A stretch of DNA of 40,146 nt. It comes from a virus. Shown here piece after piece: positions 1,681 through 38,181 of the stretch. The first letter of the stretch is position 1. The number at the start of each line of letters is the position of its first letter. The translations under genes and the position numbers were made by a program. The stretch is taken from positions 1-40,146 of IMG/VR virus record IMGVR_UViG_3300037493_003139. The stretch is one strand, 5' to 3'. The notes beneath the pieces were generated by a model. It saw only the letters and a list, made by a program, of their open reading frames with translations, had not been told where the DNA came from and searched no databases.

Positions 1681-2171
1681 ATATATTTTATCTTAGTCAC
1701 AACACCGAAGAATGTGCCCAAATGCACGTTGACAAGCATGTTGTTAAAATGATTTTGGAATACGCCCAGCTTTTGTCTACTACGCATCGTGTTCTTAATA
1801 ATGTGCCAGAAGATAGCCTTTTTTACAAGCAAACACATGTTAACCACCCATCAGCAGCGTGGGCCAGGAAGTCGTGTGAAAATTACTTTTGGTTGTATGA
1901 TTTATTAGTTGATTTATGTTGTGAGTATACTTACCGGTATAGCAAAACCCATAAAGTGCAGTCATCAGGTTTACTACATGCTTTAAGACTTGCGCCTACA
2001 AATATGCCCGCCTGCAATTTTACTGAGCCTACACAAGCAATGCCTGATGAATATAAAGTTATAGGCGACTCGATACAAGCCTATAAAAACTATTACAAAG
2101 GCGCCAAATGCAATTTGTTTAGCTGGAAAAATCGTGAAATACCCAACTTTATAGGAACAGGCAATGAGTAA
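1677..2171 (+). CDS. Conserved phage protein with DKHVVKMxLE motif, 164 aa
   Basis: Started at ATG 1677 in an ATGA overlap with the previous stop; an in-frame ATG three codons upstream is less likely. The N-terminus reads MNIFYLSHN...HVDKHVVKMILEYAQLL, then WARKSCENYFWLY and YTYRYSKTHK. I recall this pattern as a conserved protein in many phages, sometimes labelled pyrimidine-dimer glycosylase. I cannot support that activity from the sequence: it does not resemble T4 DenV by eye. The conserved His, Asp, Lys and Glu residues suggest an enzyme. Overlaps the next gene by 8 bases. Confidence 0.8.
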   Translation: MNIFYLSHNTEECAQMHVDKHVVKMILEYAQLLSTTHRVLNNVPEDSLFYKQTHVNHPSAAWARKSCENYFWLYDLLVDLCCEYTYRYSKTHKVQSSGLLHALRLAPTNMPACNFTEPTQAMPDEYKVIGDSIQAYKNYYKGAKCNLFSWKNREIPNFIGTGNE

Positions 2172-2463
2172 AGAAAGAGAGTTGTTGAAAACAATACTGG
2201 CTTACATGTGTGCTGAATATTTGGTGATGACAGAGTTTGAAATGATAGCTCAAATCGAAGATACAGTTAAAGAAATACAAGAACTACTCGCCCAACCTGA
2301 GCAGACTGAGCAAGAGCCTGTGGCTTGGATTGATGATGGGTGTAATGGTCTAATTAAGCGGCCTTTGTCTTTCTTCAGGAGCACCAGAGCTGAACAAGTA
2401 GCTTTTGAAGATGGTATTATTTTTGCTAAGATTTTATACGGCATTGGAGTAGATGATGAGTAA
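2164..2463 (+). CDS. Hypothetical early protein, 99 aa
   Basis: ATG 2164 overlaps the upstream stop. The N-terminal half is a helix ending in a Glu/Gln/Pro linker (QPEQTEQEPVAW). The EPVAW string is common in small phage proteins of unknown function, where it joins a variable N-terminus to a short folded C-terminal part. No catalytic motif was seen. Its stop overlaps the next start. Confidence 0.75.
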   Translation: MSKERELLKTILAYMCAEYLVMTEFEMIAQIEDTVKEIQELLAQPEQTEQEPVAWIDDGCNGLIKRPLSFFRSTRAEQVAFEDGIIFAKILYGIGVDDE

Positions 2464-2662
2464 AGGCAGTGGTAGAAGACCGACAGACCATAAGAAGTAT
2501 TCCGACAATTGGGAAAGAATATTTAATGACAAACCAGACTTGCATAAAAGAGTAATAGACGTATTATGGGATAGCCATCGTAGCTTGAACTCCGCTATGC
2601 AAGATGAGGTATTTAGTTGTATAGCAGAATTAGAAAAGCACGCGAGGAAAACTGATGATTAA
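2456..2662 (+). CDS. Hypothetical early protein, 68 aa
   Basis: GGAG at 2446-2449 sits six bases before ATG 2456; ATG 2453 is only three bases away, so the second Met is preferred. The protein is basic at the start (SKGSGRRPTDHKK), followed by a helical part (WERIFNDKPD...). No family recognised. Its last bases overlap the GIY-YIG-like gene that follows. Confidence 0.7.
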   Translation: MSKGSGRRPTDHKKYSDNWERIFNDKPDLHKRVIDVLWDSHRSLNSAMQDEVFSCIAELEKHARKTDD

Positions 2663-3277: not shown

Positions 3278-5350
3278 ATGGGTCCTACATTTACGTCGCA
3301 AGCCTCAGCAGCAGGATTCACCCAAGCTTCAGATGAGTATGACCAGCGTCTTATAGACCTAGGCATAAAAGACCCGGCGGCTTATGGGTTATCATTGCTT
3401 AACAATATTGATGTTACCCAGGAAATAGGCTTCTCTAAAGGCACGGGAGCAATCAAAATACAGTACTTTGATGTTAATGGCAAAGCTACTAACTTTTTTA
3501 GATATAGATTCCTAGGCTCTTTTGCTGGCAATAAATATCATCAGCCACCGCGAAGCCCAGTTAAAGCTTACCTACCACCCAATAAAAACTGCAAGCGTAA
3601 TCTTAATGACATAACAAGACCTTTGATTGTAACTGAAGGCGAGTTTAAAGCATTGTCAGGACATTTAAATGGCTACGACACAATAGGCCTTGGTGGTGTA
3701 GACTCTTTAACTAATATATTCAATGACGACAGGGTATTACTAGCGCCACTGAGCCACTTGCCTTCTAATAAAGATGTCTATATCTGCTATGACTTTGACC
3801 CATCAGATAGAATGCTTAATGGTGAGCCTAAAGAAGCGGTCAGGCGTGCTGAATTAAGACTAGCAGCTTTCCTAAAAATAAGGGGTATTAATGTATTCTT
3901 TATAAGACTTGGGCAAGGAGGTAGCAATATTAAAATAGGCCTCGACGATTACTTACAGAGTGGCGAAAGACTAGAGCCCTTAATGGCACAAGCATTACCT
4001 TACGTACCCACTAAAAAAGATGGTGAAAATTACTTGCTATCTAAATGGGCGGTATATGAAGGTGATCTGATTGACTTAAATAACGGTGATGTACTAACAA
4101 GAACAAAGTTTGCTATACAAGAACAAAACTGCTCAAATCCAGTAGACCCAAATGTATCAGGTGAAGACAAAGTAACGCCAATAACCAAGTTTTTAAACTC
4201 TTTAGATAGAACCTCAGTATATGGCCATGTTTATGACCCATCAACGTTGTCCAGGATAACAGACAAAAGCCTAGTTAACTTGTGGAAAGGGTTTAATACA
4301 CAACCTGTTAAAGGCGACGTGGGCTTATGGATAGACTTTGTAGACTTATTTTTTAGTGACGAGCCAGAAATACAGCTCCACTTTGAGCAAACAATGGCCC
4401 TTATGCTGCAAAAGCCTTGGGTTAAACAAGATAGACTACCTATACTTAGGTCTGACTTAACAGGCATTGGTAAATCATTTTACTTTGAGACCTTTGCGGC
4501 TATAATAAATGGCTCAATGAAAGGCGCACCAGTAGATCACAGGCCAAACCACGGACTTGTGACTTCAGCACAAAACCTGGATAATAACTTCAATGGCGTA
4601 ATAGCTAATAAAAGCCTGGTAGTGTTTAATGAGATAGGCGAAAAAGGTGAACGCCATACAAACTTACTCAAAGACTTAGTTACTTCGCATACCATTACAG
4701 TTAATGAGAAGTATATGAAGCCGTATACAACAAAGACGTATGCCTTATACTGTATAACTACTAACGAGAACTACACTCACCAGCTAGATGCAACATCACG
4801 TAGAGAGTTAGTCTACGCTATACCAGGCTATTCACCGCTATCTACTAAGCTAAGAGACTTCTGGGCGGACTCTAGTGAGTTAAAGTCCTGGATTAATACG
4901 CCTGAGGCGCGTAGTGCACTGCTATATTATTATCTAAACATGGAATTAGATGGTTATGACGGCACGCAGGTTGCGCCAACTGGTAAGTCAAAGCTAGACA
5001 TGGCTGAAGCATTAGAAAACACAATGGATCATTACATAAAGAATGAGCTATTAGACTTGCAATATATAGTGCCTAAGCTTGAGTATGAATTATTCATTAA
5101 GAATTACCCCTACGAGAAGTATTCCCCCACTTTCTTTGCGCGAAAGATAAAACAATATGGCTTTGTAAATGGCCCTTGGGACGTAACAAGAGGTCAAATG
5201 CACTTCAGCCCCACAGATACCTGGCCTGATAAAATCAATTTACGGCCAACAGTTCTAATAAATAGAGCCATCTTCTTTAATGATAAGTACAACAAAGATG
5301 CGCTTTTGAATTTCTTAATTGCACGTTATTTTAAACCGAAGAAATTTTAG
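3278..5350 (+). CDS. Replicative primase/helicase (DUF3854 Toprim-like plus DUF5906-type ATPase)
   Basis: 690 aa. The N-terminal third has a Toprim-like primase core: VTEGEFKAL (about residue 117), CYDFDP (about 169) and KIGLDDYL (about 218), typical of DUF3854. The middle has a helicase ATPase: GIGKS Walker A (about 395), VVFNEIGE Walker B-like (about 445), ITTNEN sensor and SRRELV, where the Arg could act as a finger, as in DUF5906/SF3-like phage proteins. It likely unwinds the fork and primes synthesis for the polymerase at 9131. GGAG eight bases before ATG 3278 supports the start. No N-terminal zinc finger (CxxC) is visible, unlike T7 gp4. Confidence 0.85.
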   Translation: MGPTFTSQASAAGFTQASDEYDQRLIDLGIKDPAAYGLSLLNNIDVTQEIGFSKGTGAIKIQYFDVNGKATNFFRYRFLGSFAGNKYHQPPRSPVKAYLPPNKNCKRNLNDITRPLIVTEGEFKALSGHLNGYDTIGLGGVDSLTNIFNDDRVLLAPLSHLPSNKDVYICYDFDPSDRMLNGEPKEAVRRAELRLAAFLKIRGINVFFIRLGQGGSNIKIGLDDYLQSGERLEPLMAQALPYVPTKKDGENYLLSKWAVYEGDLIDLNNGDVLTRTKFAIQEQNCSNPVDPNVSGEDKVTPITKFLNSLDRTSVYGHVYDPSTLSRITDKSLVNLWKGFNTQPVKGDVGLWIDFVDLFFSDEPEIQLHFEQTMALMLQKPWVKQDRLPILRSDLTGIGKSFYFETFAAIINGSMKGAPVDHRPNHGLVTSAQNLDNNFNGVIANKSLVVFNEIGEKGERHTNLLKDLVTSHTITVNEKYMKPYTTKTYALYCITTNENYTHQLDATSRRELVYAIPGYSPLSTKLRDFWADSSELKSWINTPEARSALLYYYLNMELDGYDGTQVAPTGKSKLDMAEALENTMDHYIKNELLDLQYIVPKLEYELFIKNYPYEKYSPTFFARKIKQYGFVNGPWDVTRGQMHFSPTDTWPDKINLRPTVLINRAIFFNDKYNKDALLNFLIARYFKPKKF

Positions 5351-5359
5351 TCCACAAGG

Positions 5360-5411
5360 TTTACATACACATTTCGTTGCAGTATAATAACATATACTTA
5401 TTGATAAGTAT
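5360..5411 (+). promoter_or_regulatory. Promoter 4 with 5' hairpin
   Basis: TTTACA (5360-5365), 17 bases, TATAAT (5383-5388), immediately downstream of the primase stop. Hairpin ATACTTA-TTGA-TAAGTAT (5394-5411) starts at the expected +1. A second small stem GGCAA/TTGCC follows, then a C-rich leader with GGAG before ATG 5454. Same architecture as the three near-identical early cassettes, with unrelated stem sequence. Confidence 0.8.
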
Positions 5412-5453
5412 CAACGGCAATCTTGCCTAAAACCCCAACCTGGAGATAATAAA

Positions 5454-5912
5454 ATGTCTGATATAGACTTAGAACGTGAAGAAGCAATGAACTTAATTGA
5501 CGAAGAAGCTGCGCCTGCTAAAAAGCCACGTGCTAAAAAAGCAAAAGTAGCAGAAGTAGAATTATCAGCTGAAGAAGTAGAGGCAATTGCAGCAGCTAAG
5601 CTTGAATCAGAAGCTAAAGTTGCAGAAATTAAATTAGAAATTGACGCCATCAGTGCTAATTTGAGTCAACTAAAAGCTCAATTGAAAGGACTAACAGGCA
5701 AGTCAACAAGCACAAATCGCGGCCCTGTTGGTGTAGGCGCGTTTATTAAAGAGCTTATTAAAGAAGGCTTGACTAATGCTGAAATATCTGACCGCATTAT
5801 AACTGAATGGCCAGAAAACAACACTAATACTAATTGCATTAACTGGTACCGTAATGCACTAAAAGCATGGCCTGACGGCAAAAGACCTAAAAAAGTTGTA
5901 GCAGAAGACTAA
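5454..5912 (+). CDS. Small regulator-like protein with C-terminal WYRN domain (paralogue of the gene at 37849)
   Basis: 152 aa. The N-terminal half is charged: an acidic start, a Lys/Ala-rich stretch (AKKPRAKKAK), then a Glu/Ala/Leu coiled coil (about residues 40-80). Residues about 95-140 form a compact domain: GVGAFIKELIKEGLTNAEI, then NTNTNCINWYRNAL. The same domain ends the protein at 37849 (GVGDFIRSYILEGLSNTEI ... WYRNKM). The helix-turn-helix-like spacing suggests DNA binding, but this is inference. It stands alone behind its own promoter and is followed by a 14-bp hairpin, so it is probably made in quantity. Confidence 0.75.
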   Translation: MSDIDLEREEAMNLIDEEAAPAKKPRAKKAKVAEVELSAEEVEAIAAAKLESEAKVAEIKLEIDAISANLSQLKAQLKGLTGKSTSTNRGPVGVGAFIKELIKEGLTNAEISDRIITEWPENNTNTNCINWYRNALKAWPDGKRPKKVVAED

Positions 5913-5931
5913 CGCTAAGTTAGCTAACTAT

Positions 5932-5965
5932 GGAAGCCCTGGTATTTAACTATACCAGGGCTTCC
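5932..5965 (+). terminator. 14-bp perfect hairpin after the WYRN gene
   Basis: GGAAGCCCTGGTAT / ATACCAGGGCTTCC (5932-5945 and 5952-5965) with a 6-base loop. The following bases (TAGTATT) are not a proper U-tract, so it may be a weak terminator, an RNA-processing site or a 3'-end stabiliser rather than a strong intrinsic terminator. The CCCTGG...CCAGGG core recurs in the hairpin at 9035-9100. Confidence 0.6.
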
Positions 5966-5994
5966 TAGTATTAAACCTTTGACTGGAGTATTAG

Positions 5995-6264
5995 ATGAAT
6001 AAAATAGATTCCACATTAGCTGAAAGAAGTTCAACGCATGGCTCATTTGTTGAAAATGCTTATGATTCACAGCGGCTAAAAAGAGTTGTAAGAAGATGCA
6101 ATAGCTACGAAAGCATGACTCTCGTGCAAAGAGAAGCTCTTGATATGATTATGCACAAGATTTCAAGAATAACATGTGGCAATCCACATGAGCCTGACCA
6201 TTGGTTAGACATAGCTGGCTACGCAACCTTAGTTTATAAGGACCTTTCAAATGAAGCAGTATAA
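5995..6264 (+). CDS. DUF6378-like phage protein, 89 aa
   Basis: The sequence follows the pattern of a small phage family often near nucleotide genes: LAERSSTHGSF at the start, ALDMIMHKISRI in the middle, GNPHEPDHWLDIAGYATL near the end. I match it to DUF6378 from memory. The His/Asp residues in HEPDHWLDIAGY are the conserved block. GGAG stands before ATG 5995, and the end overlaps the ThyA-fold gene by 14 bases, which ties it to nucleotide metabolism. Its biochemical role is not established. Confidence 0.7.
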   Translation: MNKIDSTLAERSSTHGSFVENAYDSQRLKRVVRRCNSYESMTLVQREALDMIMHKISRITCGNPHEPDHWLDIAGYATLVYKDLSNEAV

Positions 6265-7051
6265 AGACTTAATAAACCGCGTTCTGGACTACGCGCAAGT
6301 TAGCCCGGATAGAACAGGGGTCGGCACTCTATTTAAATTTGGTGAGAGCATAGAAATTGACTTGCAAGACCAATTCCCTATTGTTACGCTGAGAAAAATT
6401 GATTACAGGCAAGCATTTGGTGAGTTGGCAGCATTCTTAAAAGGCGCTACCTCAAAAAAAGAGTTTTCTGAACTTGGTTGTAACTATTGGAATTCTACTA
6501 AAGGCGTTGATACTGACGATAACTTAGGGCCTATATACGGCGCTCAATGGGTAAACTTTAACGGCGTTAACCAGTTGCAAGAGTTAGTAACAAGCTTAAA
6601 AGAAAACCCTTACTCAAGAAGACATATTTTGTCTACCTGGAATCCAGCTGACCTGCATAAAATGGCATTGCCACCCTGTCATATAACAGCCCAATTTAAT
6701 ATACATGAAGGCGAACTAAGCTGCGTAGTCTATATGCGTAGCGTTGATATTATGTTAGGTCTTCCTTATGACTTAATAGTCTATGCAGGCCTAACTCACT
6801 TACTAGCTAAAGAATGTGGCTTAAATCTGGGTAAGCTAAAGTTTTATTTTGGTAACGCCCACATATATAGAAATCATATTATGGACGCTATAAAGTTGAT
6901 TAAACGGGAGCCAGTTACTGAAATAGCCGACCAGCCAAACATGAAGCCTGAGCTAATACTTAGCAGCACTCTATGGGACTTTGACCCTAAAGAAGCACGC
7001 ATAATATTTTATCAGCCGCATCCATCAGTAAAATTTGAGCTTAATTTATAA
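6251..7051 (+). CDS. ThyA-fold pyrimidine C5-(hydroxy)methyltransferase; likely dCMP rather than dUMP
   Basis: 266 aa, full length and collinear with E. coli ThyA. Conserved: Arg21 (DRTG), Glu58, Tyr96 (LGPIYGAQW), SRR 122-124, catalytic Cys143 (PPCH), Asp166 (RSVD) and His204/Tyr206 (GNAHIY). The residue that reads the pyrimidine, Asn177 in E. coli ThyA (LPFN), is Asp174 here (LPYD). In T4 dCMP hydroxymethylase the same position is Asp179, and swapping Asn/Asp there is known to shift ThyA-family enzymes between dUMP and dCMP. So the enzyme probably makes 5-hydroxymethyl- or 5-methyl-dCMP. The sequence cannot decide methyl from hydroxymethyl. The gene overlaps DUF6378 and abuts dCMP deaminase. 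Confidence 0.85.
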   Translation: MKQYKDLINRVLDYAQVSPDRTGVGTLFKFGESIEIDLQDQFPIVTLRKIDYRQAFGELAAFLKGATSKKEFSELGCNYWNSTKGVDTDDNLGPIYGAQWVNFNGVNQLQELVTSLKENPYSRRHILSTWNPADLHKMALPPCHITAQFNIHEGELSCVVYMRSVDIMLGLPYDLIVYAGLTHLLAKECGLNLGKLKFYFGNAHIYRNHIMDAIKLIKREPVTEIADQPNMKPELILSSTLWDFDPKEARIIFYQPHPSVKFELNL

Positions 7052-7470
7052 TGATTACTAAAACTCAATGGGCAATGGAATTAGCTATACAAATAGCCAA
7101 AATAGCAACATGCCCTAGACGATCTGTGGGCTGTGTTCTGTTAGATAGCGACTACAAAATATTGTCCACTGGGTTTAATGGCGTACCACCAGGCATAAAG
7201 CATTGCACTGATTATCCATGTGCCGGTGCAGTACACGAAGATAAGTGCATGGCTATACATGCAGAAATAAATGCACTAATACAATGCCCCGACGTGTCTA
7301 AAATAAGAAAAGCTTTTGTAACATGCTTCCCTTGCTTTAGATGTGCTAAGGCTCTTATGAATACAGGAGTAAAAGAAGTAATCTACATTGATGTTTATAA
7401 CGGCTTTGAAGAGACGGCAGAAATGTTAACCTCTTCCGGCATCTCAATCCATAAATACGAGGTAATATAA
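7051..7470 (+). CDS. Deoxycytidylate (dCMP) deaminase
   Basis: 139 aa. Zinc and catalytic motif HAE at 70-72 (MAIHAEINAL) and PCFRC at 94-98 give the His and two Cys ligands and the Glu proton shuttle of the cytidine/dCMP deaminase family. GFNGVPPG (41-48) and extra Cys/His residues (HCTDYPC) match the phage T4/T2-type dCMP deaminase, which turns dCMP into dUMP. Stop and start codons overlap by one base on both sides (TAATG), so it is coupled to the ThyA-fold and MazG-like genes. It competes with or balances the ThyA-fold enzyme for dCMP. Confidence 0.9.
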   Translation: MITKTQWAMELAIQIAKIATCPRRSVGCVLLDSDYKILSTGFNGVPPGIKHCTDYPCAGAVHEDKCMAIHAEINALIQCPDVSKIRKAFVTCFPCFRCAKALMNTGVKEVIYIDVYNGFEETAEMLTSSGISIHKYEVI

Positions 7471-7865
7471 TGAGTACGTATCAAGATGTAATAAATGTAA
7501 ACAAGCACCACGGGGTGCCTATGGCAGCTAAGCCAACCTTTCCTAATGTTGAAGACTTTAGTTTTAGGCATGACTTTTTACTTGAAGAGCTTGATGAATT
7601 AGAAGAAGCTTTTAGTGAGCGATCTTTAGTAGGCATAGTAGACGCAATTGCTGACATACTAATTGTAGCTTACGGGCTTGCCGCAACAATGGGTTTGCCT
7701 ATGGACGAAATACTTGAAATAGTTAATGCCGCTAATACACACGGCAAAAGGCTAGTTACTTCTGCTGAAGAAAGCAAGCGTAGTTACAGGTTTGACTTAA
7801 AGAAAACTAAAGATTTTGTATCACCAGAAGCGGCAATTTTTGAACTGCTAAAAGGAGCTTTGTAA
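7470..7865 (+). CDS. MazG-like all-alpha NTP pyrophosphatase
   Basis: 131 aa. LLEELDELEEA (residues 37-47) provides the EExxE metal site and VDAIADILIVAYG (57-69) the second acidic helix of the all-alpha NTP pyrophosphatase superfamily, which also holds the dimeric dUTPases and T4 dCTPase/dUTPase. It should hydrolyse a nucleoside triphosphate to the monophosphate plus PPi. In this operon a dCTP- or dUTP-clearing role, feeding monophosphate to the ThyA-fold enzyme and deaminase, is plausible but unproven. Overlaps neighbours by one base on each side. Confidence 0.8.
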   Translation: MSTYQDVINVNKHHGVPMAAKPTFPNVEDFSFRHDFLLEELDELEEAFSERSLVGIVDAIADILIVAYGLAATMGLPMDEILEIVNAANTHGKRLVTSAEESKRSYRFDLKKTKDFVSPEAAIFELLKGAL

Positions 7866-8245
7866 TGGACAGTCGTTCTATAGGCTCATTAACAGATAAG
7901 CTCTATGAAATTAGGTCTAATCGGCTAGCATTAGAAAAAGAAGCCGATGGTCTTAAAAGTAGAGAGGCAGCCATTAGTAGTTACTTAATAAAGAGACTGC
8001 AAGCTGATGATACAGAGGCGGTGCGTGGCACTAAAGCAATGTTTAGCTTAAGCCATAAAGTTGTGCCTGAAGTGCTAGACTGGGAAGGCTTATACAGCTT
8101 TATAGTTGACAACCACGCTTTTAGTCTGCTACAAAAACGTATAGGCTCAATGGCATGGGGTGAATACTTAGACTCCGGCATAGTTGTTCCAGGCACTGCA
8201 GCACTTGAAGTTACAAAATATAACCTAACCAAAACTCGAGGATAA
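7865..8245 (+). CDS. Conserved phage protein of the replication module, 126 aa
   Basis: An N-terminal coiled coil (about residues 8-45, LYEIRSNRLALEKEADGL) is followed by a short folded domain with LDWEGLYSFI, LLQKRI and GIVVPGTAALEV. Proteins with this layout commonly sit just upstream of the ssDNA-binding-like gene in short-tailed phages, but their function is not known to me. Overlaps the MazG-like gene by one base and precedes the next gene by four. Confidence 0.7.
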   Translation: MDSRSIGSLTDKLYEIRSNRLALEKEADGLKSREAAISSYLIKRLQADDTEAVRGTKAMFSLSHKVVPEVLDWEGLYSFIVDNHAFSLLQKRIGSMAWGEYLDSGIVVPGTAALEVTKYNLTKTRG

Positions 8246-17743: not shown

Positions 17744-18508
17744 CTATTCCTTATTAATTGTTGATAAAAAGAAATCATGCTGCTCTCTCCATATCCCTTT
17801 AAGTTCTTGAGGGTTTTCAATAGATAAGCGATGAATCTCATGTAACCTTGGATTATTGTGCCTTTTTGCTATTATGTTTAGATGACTCCCACAAAATATA
17901 TGGTCAAAACAATCATTTTGTTTTTCTGTAAATATTTCAATATCACTATGCAAACATTCAAAAACTTGACCAAACGTATCCCACATTGTCCAGTTGCCAT
18001 TTATTTTAAGGGTTGTATATTTTATTAGATCAGTGCAATATTTATTTTCCAGTGCATTAATTTTGTTTATCAATAGTTTTACAGAAGGTATATACAAGAA
18101 TGAAGTGTGTATTCTTGGCTTAGTTATAGTATTGGTATATGCATTAAAGAACTCAGGTATTAATCTTCCAGACAGCAATTTATTGGTAGTAAATGTTTCT
18201 ACGTTTCCCCAAAAAATGACATCAGGATCAATAATATATATCTGAGCATCATCATTTTCACAGTTTAAAATATACCTCAAATAATCACGGTGAAGCACTT
18301 GATTTTCCAATTTAACAAATTGTGCATTAACACTGTGCGCAGCTTTTTCTATCTCAATAACTGCATCAGTAATGCTATGGTTATCAACTACTATAATTTC
18401 AGCAGTTGGAAACCCCACACGAATAGTGTCGAATACAAGCAATGAACCGTATAGCTGATTAATATCTTTACAAAATGTTAATACATAGACCTTTTTCAAG
18501 CCACCCAT
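17744..18508 (-). CDS. GT-A-type glycosyltransferase, 254 aa
   Basis: KKVYVLTFCKD is followed by EIIVVDNHS (about 38-45), the first Rossmann-like strand and Asp of GT-A nucleotide-sugar transferases, and YIIDPDVIFWG (91-101), whose DPD is the metal-binding DxD. The frame is open ten codons further upstream, but ATG 18508 follows the cupin stop directly with AAGGA in front, so I start there. It would move a sugar onto a protein, glycan or base; the acceptor is unknown. It sits among tail and ejection genes, so virion-protein or host-surface glycosylation is likeliest. T4 hydroxymethylcytosine transferases are GT-B, not this fold. Confidence 0.75.
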   Translation of the reverse strand: MGGLKKVYVLTFCKDINQLYGSLLVFDTIRVGFPTAEIIVVDNHSITDAVIEIEKAAHSVNAQFVKLENQVLHRDYLRYILNCENDDAQIYIIDPDVIFWGNVETFTTNKLLSGRLIPEFFNAYTNTITKPRIHTSFLYIPSVKLLINKINALENKYCTDLIKYTTLKINGNWTMWDTFGQVFECLHSDIEIFTEKQNDCFDHIFCGSHLNIIAKRHNNPRLHEIHRLSIENPQELKGIWREQHDFFLSTINKE

Positions 18509-18509
18509 A

Positions 18510-18995
18510 TTAATCTTTATCCTTTGATGTAACATCACCTAGTGTACTACCATCATCACCAACCCAATCACAACCTGCGCAAGTTGGTAAAGTACCATTT
18601 AAATATTTTTGTACTGAAAAGAAACTAGCACCATTCTCACCAAATGTACCACCATGCCAGTAATGTGGTAATACTCTTATTGGCGCCATACTATCAGGAT
18701 TGTTAGAATCATATAATATGCCATTTGTTTCAAATACTACATCACCAGAGTTGTAGACTTCATAACTGTCCATATTAGGGTGAATATGCCGCCTAACAAC
18801 TGTATTAGCTGGCACAACTATTAATTGTATTTGGTACACATCATGTCTATATAAATTGATACACGTTACTTTTTTACTAGACTTATCACCCTTAATTTCA
18901 AAATGGTCACAAGTAGGGTTATCTAGCGGTATATTTAATGGTCTACCATTACTGAACCACCAATTTAGAAAGCTAGTTAAATCATCGTATATCAT
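18510..18995 (-). CDS. Cupin-fold protein, 161 aa
   Basis: RRHIHPNMDSYEVYNSG (68-84) gives the first cupin motif with His70, His72 and Glu79 as metal ligands. LPHYWHGGTFG further on supplies the second motif and its His. Cupins of this size include sugar epimerases/isomerases and dioxygenases. The ATGA overlap with the gene upstream and one-base gap to the glycosyltransferase suggest the two act together, for example in making or attaching a sugar. The substrate is not evident. The C-terminus has a CAGC pair. Confidence 0.75.
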   Translation of the reverse strand: MIYDDLTSFLNWWFSNGRPLNIPLDNPTCDHFEIKGDKSSKKVTCINLYRHDVYQIQLIVVPANTVVRRHIHPNMDSYEVYNSGDVVFETNGILYDSNNPDSMAPIRVLPHYWHGGTFGENGASFFSVQKYLNGTLPTCAGCDWVGDDGSTLGDVTSKDKD

Positions 18996-37703: not shown

Positions 37704-37749
37704 AATATATTAAAGAATAAATTATTTAATCATTAAGGTAAAATAAGTG

Positions 37750-37801
37750 TGTACAACTGCATTAATTAATGATATTATAACTCATCACTTAGATTATCTA
37801 A
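37750..37801 (+). promoter_or_regulatory. Early promoter 5 (diverging from the late promoter)
   Basis: TGTACA (37750-37755), 17 bases, TATTAT (37773-37778). Near the expected +1 lies TTAGATTATCTAA (37789-37801), a small dyad, and GTCC-TCA-GGAC (37818-37828) follows. Less close to consensus than promoters 1-4, but with the same spacing and a 5' hairpin again. Confidence 0.65.
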
Positions 37802-37848
37802 CTGATAAACCCTTTCGTCCTCAGGACAACCTATATCGGAGAAGTATC

Positions 37849-38181
37849 ATGGCTAGACCTAAAAAAGTAATCTTAGAAGAAGTAACTCTTGAAGAAGCAT
37901 TGATTGAAGAGTCTACCCTTGAAGAAAACAATGAAGTTAAGATTGAAGAAATTAAAACCGAAATTGCAATATTGGAGTCCAAACTTATTGAACTTCGTGC
38001 CTTGTTACCAGTGGAACCTAAGACTTTCAAAAAGGCAATCAACAAGGGTGTTGGTGACTTCATTCGTAGTTATATTCTCGAGGGTTTGAGTAACACTGAA
38101 ATCCTACCTAAAGTCCATGCTCATTATGGTAACACCAACACTACCTATGCTTGTGTTGCCTGGTATCGTAACAAAATGTAA
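37849..38181 (+). CDS. Small regulator-like protein with C-terminal WYRN domain (paralogue of the gene at 5454)
   Basis: 110 aa when started at ATG 37849 (MARPKK), which has GGAGAAG in front; the frame runs open further upstream, but that region holds the promoter. After a basic start comes a Glu/Lys/Ile/Leu coiled coil, then GVGDFIRSYILEGLSNTEIL...TTYACVAWYRN, matching the C-terminal domain at 5454. First gene of the rightward arm, next to the control region, so a transcription or origin-binding role is plausible but inferred. Confidence 0.75.
   Translation: MARPKKVILEEVTLEEALIEESTLEENNEVKIEEIKTEIAILESKLIELRALLPVEPKTFKKAINKGVGDFIRSYILEGLSNTEILPKVHAHYGNTNTTYACVAWYRNKM

Follow-up and report, generated by a model that had tools for sequence, protein, structure and literature searches.

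According to our analysis, the open reading frame at 6251-7051 on the plus strand of an IMG/VR virus record, analysed here as a whole (the window, 40,146 bases), probably encodes a predicted dCMP C5-methylase, and its sequence makes hydroxymethylation the less likely activity. The initial annotation had proposed a dCMP methylase or hydroxymethylase on the T4 model. Of this, the proposed use of dCMP and the link with cytosine modification find support in the Asp at residue 174, in accompanying changes at positions 165 and 180 of E. coli ThyA, in a conserved operon and in the published association of Asp177 and of the neighbouring gene families with modified DNA (PMC8670742), while the emphasis on hydroxymethylation and T4 does not, the signature residues being of thymidylate synthase (TS) type and the C-terminal lid being present. 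Judged from sequence, dCMP is the likely substrate. The genes and codons concerned, all on the plus strand, are these:

5995-6264 (+): DUF6378 protein, 89 aa, first gene of the cassette (PF19905)
6251-7051 (+): TS-fold enzyme with Asp at the pyrimidine-reading site, 266 aa (Pfam, alignments, AlphaFold model, fold search)
6677-6679 (+): catalytic Cys143 (ThyA Cys146), from alignments; three residues before it stands Leu140, as in TS, against Asp in T4 gp42
6734-6736 (+): Met162 (ThyA Gln165), from the survey alignment
6770-6772 (+): Asp174, codon GAC (ThyA Asn177, T4 gp42 Asp179), from alignments
6779-6781 (+): Val177 (ThyA Ser180), from the survey alignment
7051-7470 (+): dCMP deaminase (PF00383, 1.4e-19; phrog_174, 1.5e-40; PDB deoxycytidylate deaminases)
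7470-7865 (+): MazG/PRA-PH-like all-alpha NTP pyrophosphatase (PF01503, 1.7e-13), a relative of the N-terminal domain of AXL1 gp64
7865-8245 (+): conserved small protein (phrog_13900) whose translation is coupled to that of the cassette and which is kept with it in the related contig L052

The protein matches the Thymidylat_synt family over its full length (residues 2-264, Pfam E=2e-77), and its identity to E. coli ThyA is about 37% from end to end; its AlphaFold2 model, built on 19 aligned viral relatives (mean pLDDT 93.6), superposes on ThyA with a TM score of 0.92, and TS structures rank top in a fold search. The collinearity with ThyA noticed at the outset, including the numbering of Arg21 and Glu58, is borne out by alignment, in which the catalytic residues Cys143, Arg123/124, Arg163, Ser164, Asp166, His204 and Tyr206 are invariant, and the features of the PF00303 superfamily (full-length fold, catalytic Cys, Arg quartet, Asp169, His207 and Tyr209) are all found. 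The motif at the pyrimidine-reading site is MRSVDIMLGLPYD. Its LPYD, with Asp174, had been set opposite LPFN of ThyA, with Asn177, and opposite Asp179 of T4 gp42; both placements hold in an unambiguous alignment with ThyA, solved TS structures and gp42, and Asp174 occupies the pyrimidine-reading position in place of the Asn that characterises ThyA. The gp42 and ThyA sequences were entered by hand, gp42 being verified against PDB 1b49 and ThyA by length and key positions only. Relatives at 93% identity (L001/L021) and at 54% identity (L052) have the same Asp, which therefore is not a lone error.

Asn or Asp at this site determines the substrate, according to work cited in PMC8670742 and PMC6400193, and the engineered L. 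casei N229D and E. coli N177D synthases yield 5-methyl-dCMP (cited in PMC8670742). The window enzyme resembles these mutants as a TS active site altered at the same residue; unlike them it is natural, is altered also at 165 and 180, and lies within a phage cassette.

The product is suggested by the rest of the active site. A T4-type hydroxymethylase has been proposed to be marked by Asp at the third position ahead of the catalytic Cys, where TS has Leu, and by Ser at the second position ahead of the catalytic Tyr; D145N abolished the T4 activity, and gp42 has no C-terminal lid (PMC6400193). In the window enzyme the first of these positions holds Leu140 rather than Asp or Glu, the second holds Pro (Pro-Ile-Tyr) rather than Ser or Thr, and a lid of ThyA length, ending FELNL, is present, because of which hydride transfer, and so 5-methyl-dCMP, is favoured; Asp at 177 joined to a TS-type hydride-transfer site, with lid and without Asp at -3 of the Cys, is the combination expected of a dCMP methylase. 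That water would instead quench the exocyclic methylene intermediate, giving 5-hydroxymethyl-dCMP for DNA as in T4, appears to us rather unlikely. The enzyme does have the fold and the catalytic residues of gp42 and, like it, Asp where the pyrimidine is read and Met at 165; hydroxymethylation regenerates THF without DHFR, a gene for which was sought across the record and not found; and Trp83 of ThyA, said to restrict solvent access (PMC6400193), is not conserved, being Thr or Gly in an uncertain part of the alignment. Against this stand the TS-type residues at both signature positions (Asp145 and Ser94 of T4), the retained lid, a sequence far nearer ThyA than gp42, the TS structures at the top of the fold search, and a record in which neither glucosyltransferase nor carbamoyltransferase families were recognised. 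Hydroxymethylation by analogy with T4 was consequently set aside, the published signature residues (PMC6400193) having been looked for and found to be of the other type.

Among the record's identified genes (Pfam, phrog and PDB comparison) there was no nucleotide kinase and no DNA glucosyltransferase, which, like the lack of a DHFR gene, counts against the proposed supply of methylated cytosine for phage DNA. A glycosyltransferase-like protein with the motif IIDPDV and no family match is encoded at 17744-18538 (-), adjoining a cupin-like gene at 18510-18995 (-) among structural genes; as a candidate DNA glucosyltransferase it was rejected, having neither family nor PDB support. Other genes identified in the record are those of terminase, portal, major capsid, endolysin, primase, family A DNA polymerase and an SNF2-type helicase. 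The frames at 5454-5912 and 37747-38181 have a common C-terminal motif (GVGAFI...NWYRN and GVGDFI...AWYRN) and look like paralogues, for both of which the relatives L257 and L258 show one site.

The DUF6378 gene, whose PF19905 match (E=1e-5) lies slightly below the curated cut-off, has 14 bases in common with the beginning of the TS-like gene, and TAATG stop/start overlaps follow at 7049-7053, 7468-7472 and 7863-7867; the DUF6378, TS, deaminase and MazG genes therefore probably share a transcript and have coupled translation. A dCMP deaminase and a MazG-like pyrophosphatase had been said to come directly after the enzyme, and so they do: the former (7051-7470) has the zinc, HAE, PCxxC and G-F-N-G allosteric motifs and may act on dCMP and/or a 5-methylated nucleotide, while the latter (7470-7865) has, by its PRA-PH/MazG fold family, a probable dCTPase-like role. 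T4, too, has dCTPase-like and dCMP deaminase partners. In contig L052 the gene order is that of the window: DUF6378, TS, deaminase, MazG, small protein and a 256-aa protein.

A degenerate motif pattern found at least 119 viral contigs when written with Asp and at least 120 when written with Asn, and the matches listed gave a non-redundant set of 57 Asp177 and 69 Asn177 enzymes. Within this set position 165 is Gln in all 69 Asn177 enzymes, against Met in 54% and Gln in 42% of the Asp177 ones, and position 180 is Ser in all 69, against Met, Ser, Leu, Val or Ile where 177 is Asp. The pair reads Met/Val in the window enzyme, Met/Trp in T4 gp42 and Leu/Gly in AXL1; outside the survey sample, one Asn177 enzyme from a bacterial genome (L248) carries Val/Glu. 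Trees with column 177 masked require about 7-10 changes of the Asp/Asn label, 3 of which are forced by well supported branches, and place the window enzyme in an older, stable Asp clade. Two TS of T4-like phages, L027:6495-7352(-) with Asp177 and L164:6255-7112(-) with Asn177, are well supported sisters, and the specificity switch is therefore recent there. Viral TS genes in L003, L004, L005 and L006 are divided, beyond roughly residue 163, by stretches of 250 to 1,050 bases that probably represent introns or inserted elements. When isolated phages with a close Asp177/His147 enzyme were sought, the matches inspected, from Gordonia SpeedDemon, Arthrobacter Cheesy and Bacteroides BK649P1, were Asn177.

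Gene neighbourhoods were compared in 50 Asp177 and 50 Asn177 contigs, each of at least 15 kb, among the matches listed. Of the 50 Asp177 contigs, 32 have a PRA-PH/MazG gene no further than 2 kb from TS, and of the 50 Asn177 ones none does; for dCMP deaminase the counts at this distance are 9/50 and 0/50, and DUF6378 is immediately upstream of TS in 18 Asp177 contigs and adjoins TS in no Asn177 contig, although two of the latter carry it elsewhere. These counts are not independent and come from few lineages: along the tree the MazG trait switches only some 4 times, and a paired-lineage test is powerless with so few switches. Three Asn177 contigs (L259, L260 and L261, in G061, G062 and G083) have a divergent gp42-like gene adjoining dCMP deaminase, which does not adjoin the TS; in G061 and G062 this arrangement fits a link of the deaminase with cytosine modification, and in G083 a DUF6378 gene is also there and the gp42-like match contains one in-frame stop. 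In one phage contig, L030, a dCMP deaminase lies between two genes (1736-2557(-) and 5303-6034(-)) for a TS-fold enzyme with Asp177 and a hydroxymethylase resembling T4 gp42; the hydroxymethylase is 45% identical to that of T4 and keeps the signature Asp and Ser, so that two dCMP enzymes are predicted in one phage.

The AXL1 cassette and Xp12 are a better parallel for the window than T4. In Xp12 cytosine is fully replaced by 5-methylcytosine, a dCMP methyltransferase is present, and a deaminase converts 5-methyl-dCTP to dTTP (PMC5175136, PMC9206674, PMC12088426). Its relative AXL1 (Bosavirus) has DNA that resists most enzymes with G/C sites, and the accessible part of the discussion of this resistance in PMC9206674 makes no mention of the Asp177 that the AXL1 TS (gp63) carries. 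Genes gp61-gp64 of AXL1, for pyrophosphohydrolase, TS, dCMP deaminase and DHFR, stand side by side, and gp64 (L127:5561-6334(-)), annotated as a nucleotide pyrophosphohydrolase, joins a MazG-like domain to one of Nmad1/DUF1599-like type. The latter is homologous to an Nmad1-like gene upstream of TS in two contigs of the window enzyme's clade (L018, 40% identity; L076, 47%), PF07659 being named 'nucleotide modification associated domain 1'. The DUF6378 gene of the window occupies the place of this Nmad1-like gene; a pooled profile of the upstream genes matches the gp64 domain, while the window's gene alone does not. With AXL1, the relative of Xp12 that was compared, the window shares the cluster expected of an Xp12-type dCMP methylase, an Asp177 TS-fold enzyme with dCMP deaminase and MazG-like pyrophosphohydrolase. 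AXL1 departs from the window in having Asn at -3 of the Cys and Pro at 147, in showing no TS-like lid when aligned, and in carrying both a DHFR gene and the pyrophosphatase-Nmad1 fusion; the window has Leu, His, the lid, no DHFR and separate genes.

Natural enzymes of this kind were connected to DNA modification by the MetaGPA study (PMC8670742), in which TS position 177 is mostly Asp in experimentally modified contigs, PF00303, PF00383, PF14437 and PF01503 co-occur in them, and position 147 is a second residue tied to modification. The window resembles those contigs in Asp177 and in the co-occurrence with PF00383, PF14437 and PF01503. Position 147 differs between the modified and unmodified contigs, and here the window enzyme keeps the canonical His (His144), a point against modification when compared with Thr in T4 gp42 and Pro in AXL1; some MetaGPA contigs also carry a carbamoyltransferase, and none was recognised in the window.

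A different use of the same enzyme would be the making of thymidylate: dCMP would be methylated mainly as an intermediate, the deaminase turning 5-methyl-dCMP into dTMP and bypassing dUMP, with cytosine in DNA ordinary or partly modified, or, in a weaker form, enough dUMP activity would be left for the enzyme to serve as the phage thymidylate synthase. Consistent with this are the retained His147, the overlapping codons that couple enzyme to deaminase, and the absence from the record of a second TS or a ThyX, which leaves this as the sole TS; dCMP deaminases accept 5-methyl-dCMP, Xp12 makes dTTP from 5-methyl-dCTP (PMC12088426), and in L030 the Asp177 TS and the gp42-like hydroxymethylase flank a single deaminase, which would suit a thymidylate role for the Asp177 enzyme. 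However, a dCMP deaminase anywhere in the record is found in only 15/50 Asp177 contigs, and most Asp177 enzymes therefore cannot depend on a deaminase route; DNA modification is also what the association found by MetaGPA and the MazG-like gene alongside point to. We regard thymidylate as the main purpose as improbable. That Asp174 is a neutral change in an ordinary thymidylate synthase, which the protein is overall nearest to, is very hard to believe and was rejected on conservation and context, since the Asp is kept across about 50% divergence, has several origins, comes with the 165/180 changes and a distinct neighbourhood, and sits where Asn or Asp sets the substrate in the work cited in PMC8670742 and PMC6400193.

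Palindrome avoidance, taken as a sign of modification, gave a mixed outcome confounded by host and lineage, and was discarded. In favour, avoidance of 4-mer palindromes that contain C is weaker in Asp177 contigs, with a median of 0.88, than in Asn177 contigs, with 0.74 (window 0.85), and A/T-only control palindromes show little difference; against, the window avoids C-containing 6-mer palindromes (0.73), and GATC is strongly avoided, occurring in it at about half the expected frequency (0.48). CpG is depleted in the window (0.64).

Returning to the dCMP methylase, we propose that the Asp177-type TS homologue would take dCMP in place of dUMP and turn it into 5-methyl-dCMP by TS chemistry with methylenetetrahydrofolate. 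The MazG-like neighbour, by hydrolysing dCTP to dCMP, would both clear the unmodified precursor and feed the methylase, and the deaminase would make dUMP from dCMP and/or, as happens in Xp12, convert the methylated product to a thymidine nucleotide. Host kinases would then phosphorylate the methylated nucleotide, which would replace cytosine in phage DNA and blunt host restriction. Taken whole, with dCTP removal and cytosine replacement, this explanation is somewhat more probable than its opposite; we infer in it the substrate, the product, the dCTPase role and the modified virion DNA. A DNA sequence proves no modification of virion cytosine, yet such modification is plausible, and with it may come resistance to host nucleases, as suggested in the initial annotation. 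It is also conceivable, as a tentative suggestion, that one Asp177 enzyme supplies both 5-methyl-dCMP for DNA and, via the coupled deaminase, thymidylate without dUMP; the Xp12 route of 'methylate first, deaminate later' would then have arisen in an ordinary ThyA through substitutions at 177, 165 and 180, and uncultured phages might often use it.

Natural Asp177 enzymes tied to modified cytosine having been published (MetaGPA 2021, PMC8670742), the kind is already known and the member is new. Here the classic Asn-to-Asp change of specificity is met in nature, in a testable form and within an active site that otherwise looks like that of TS. The case also singles out residues 165 and 180 as changing together with 177, and it directs attention to a large, barely characterised group of Asp177 phage enzymes, which with its at least 119 contigs is larger than the sample taken here. 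The choice between methyl and hydroxymethyl, and the action of the deaminase on the methylated nucleotide, bear on the extent of cytosine replacement and on thymidylate synthesis in environmental phages.
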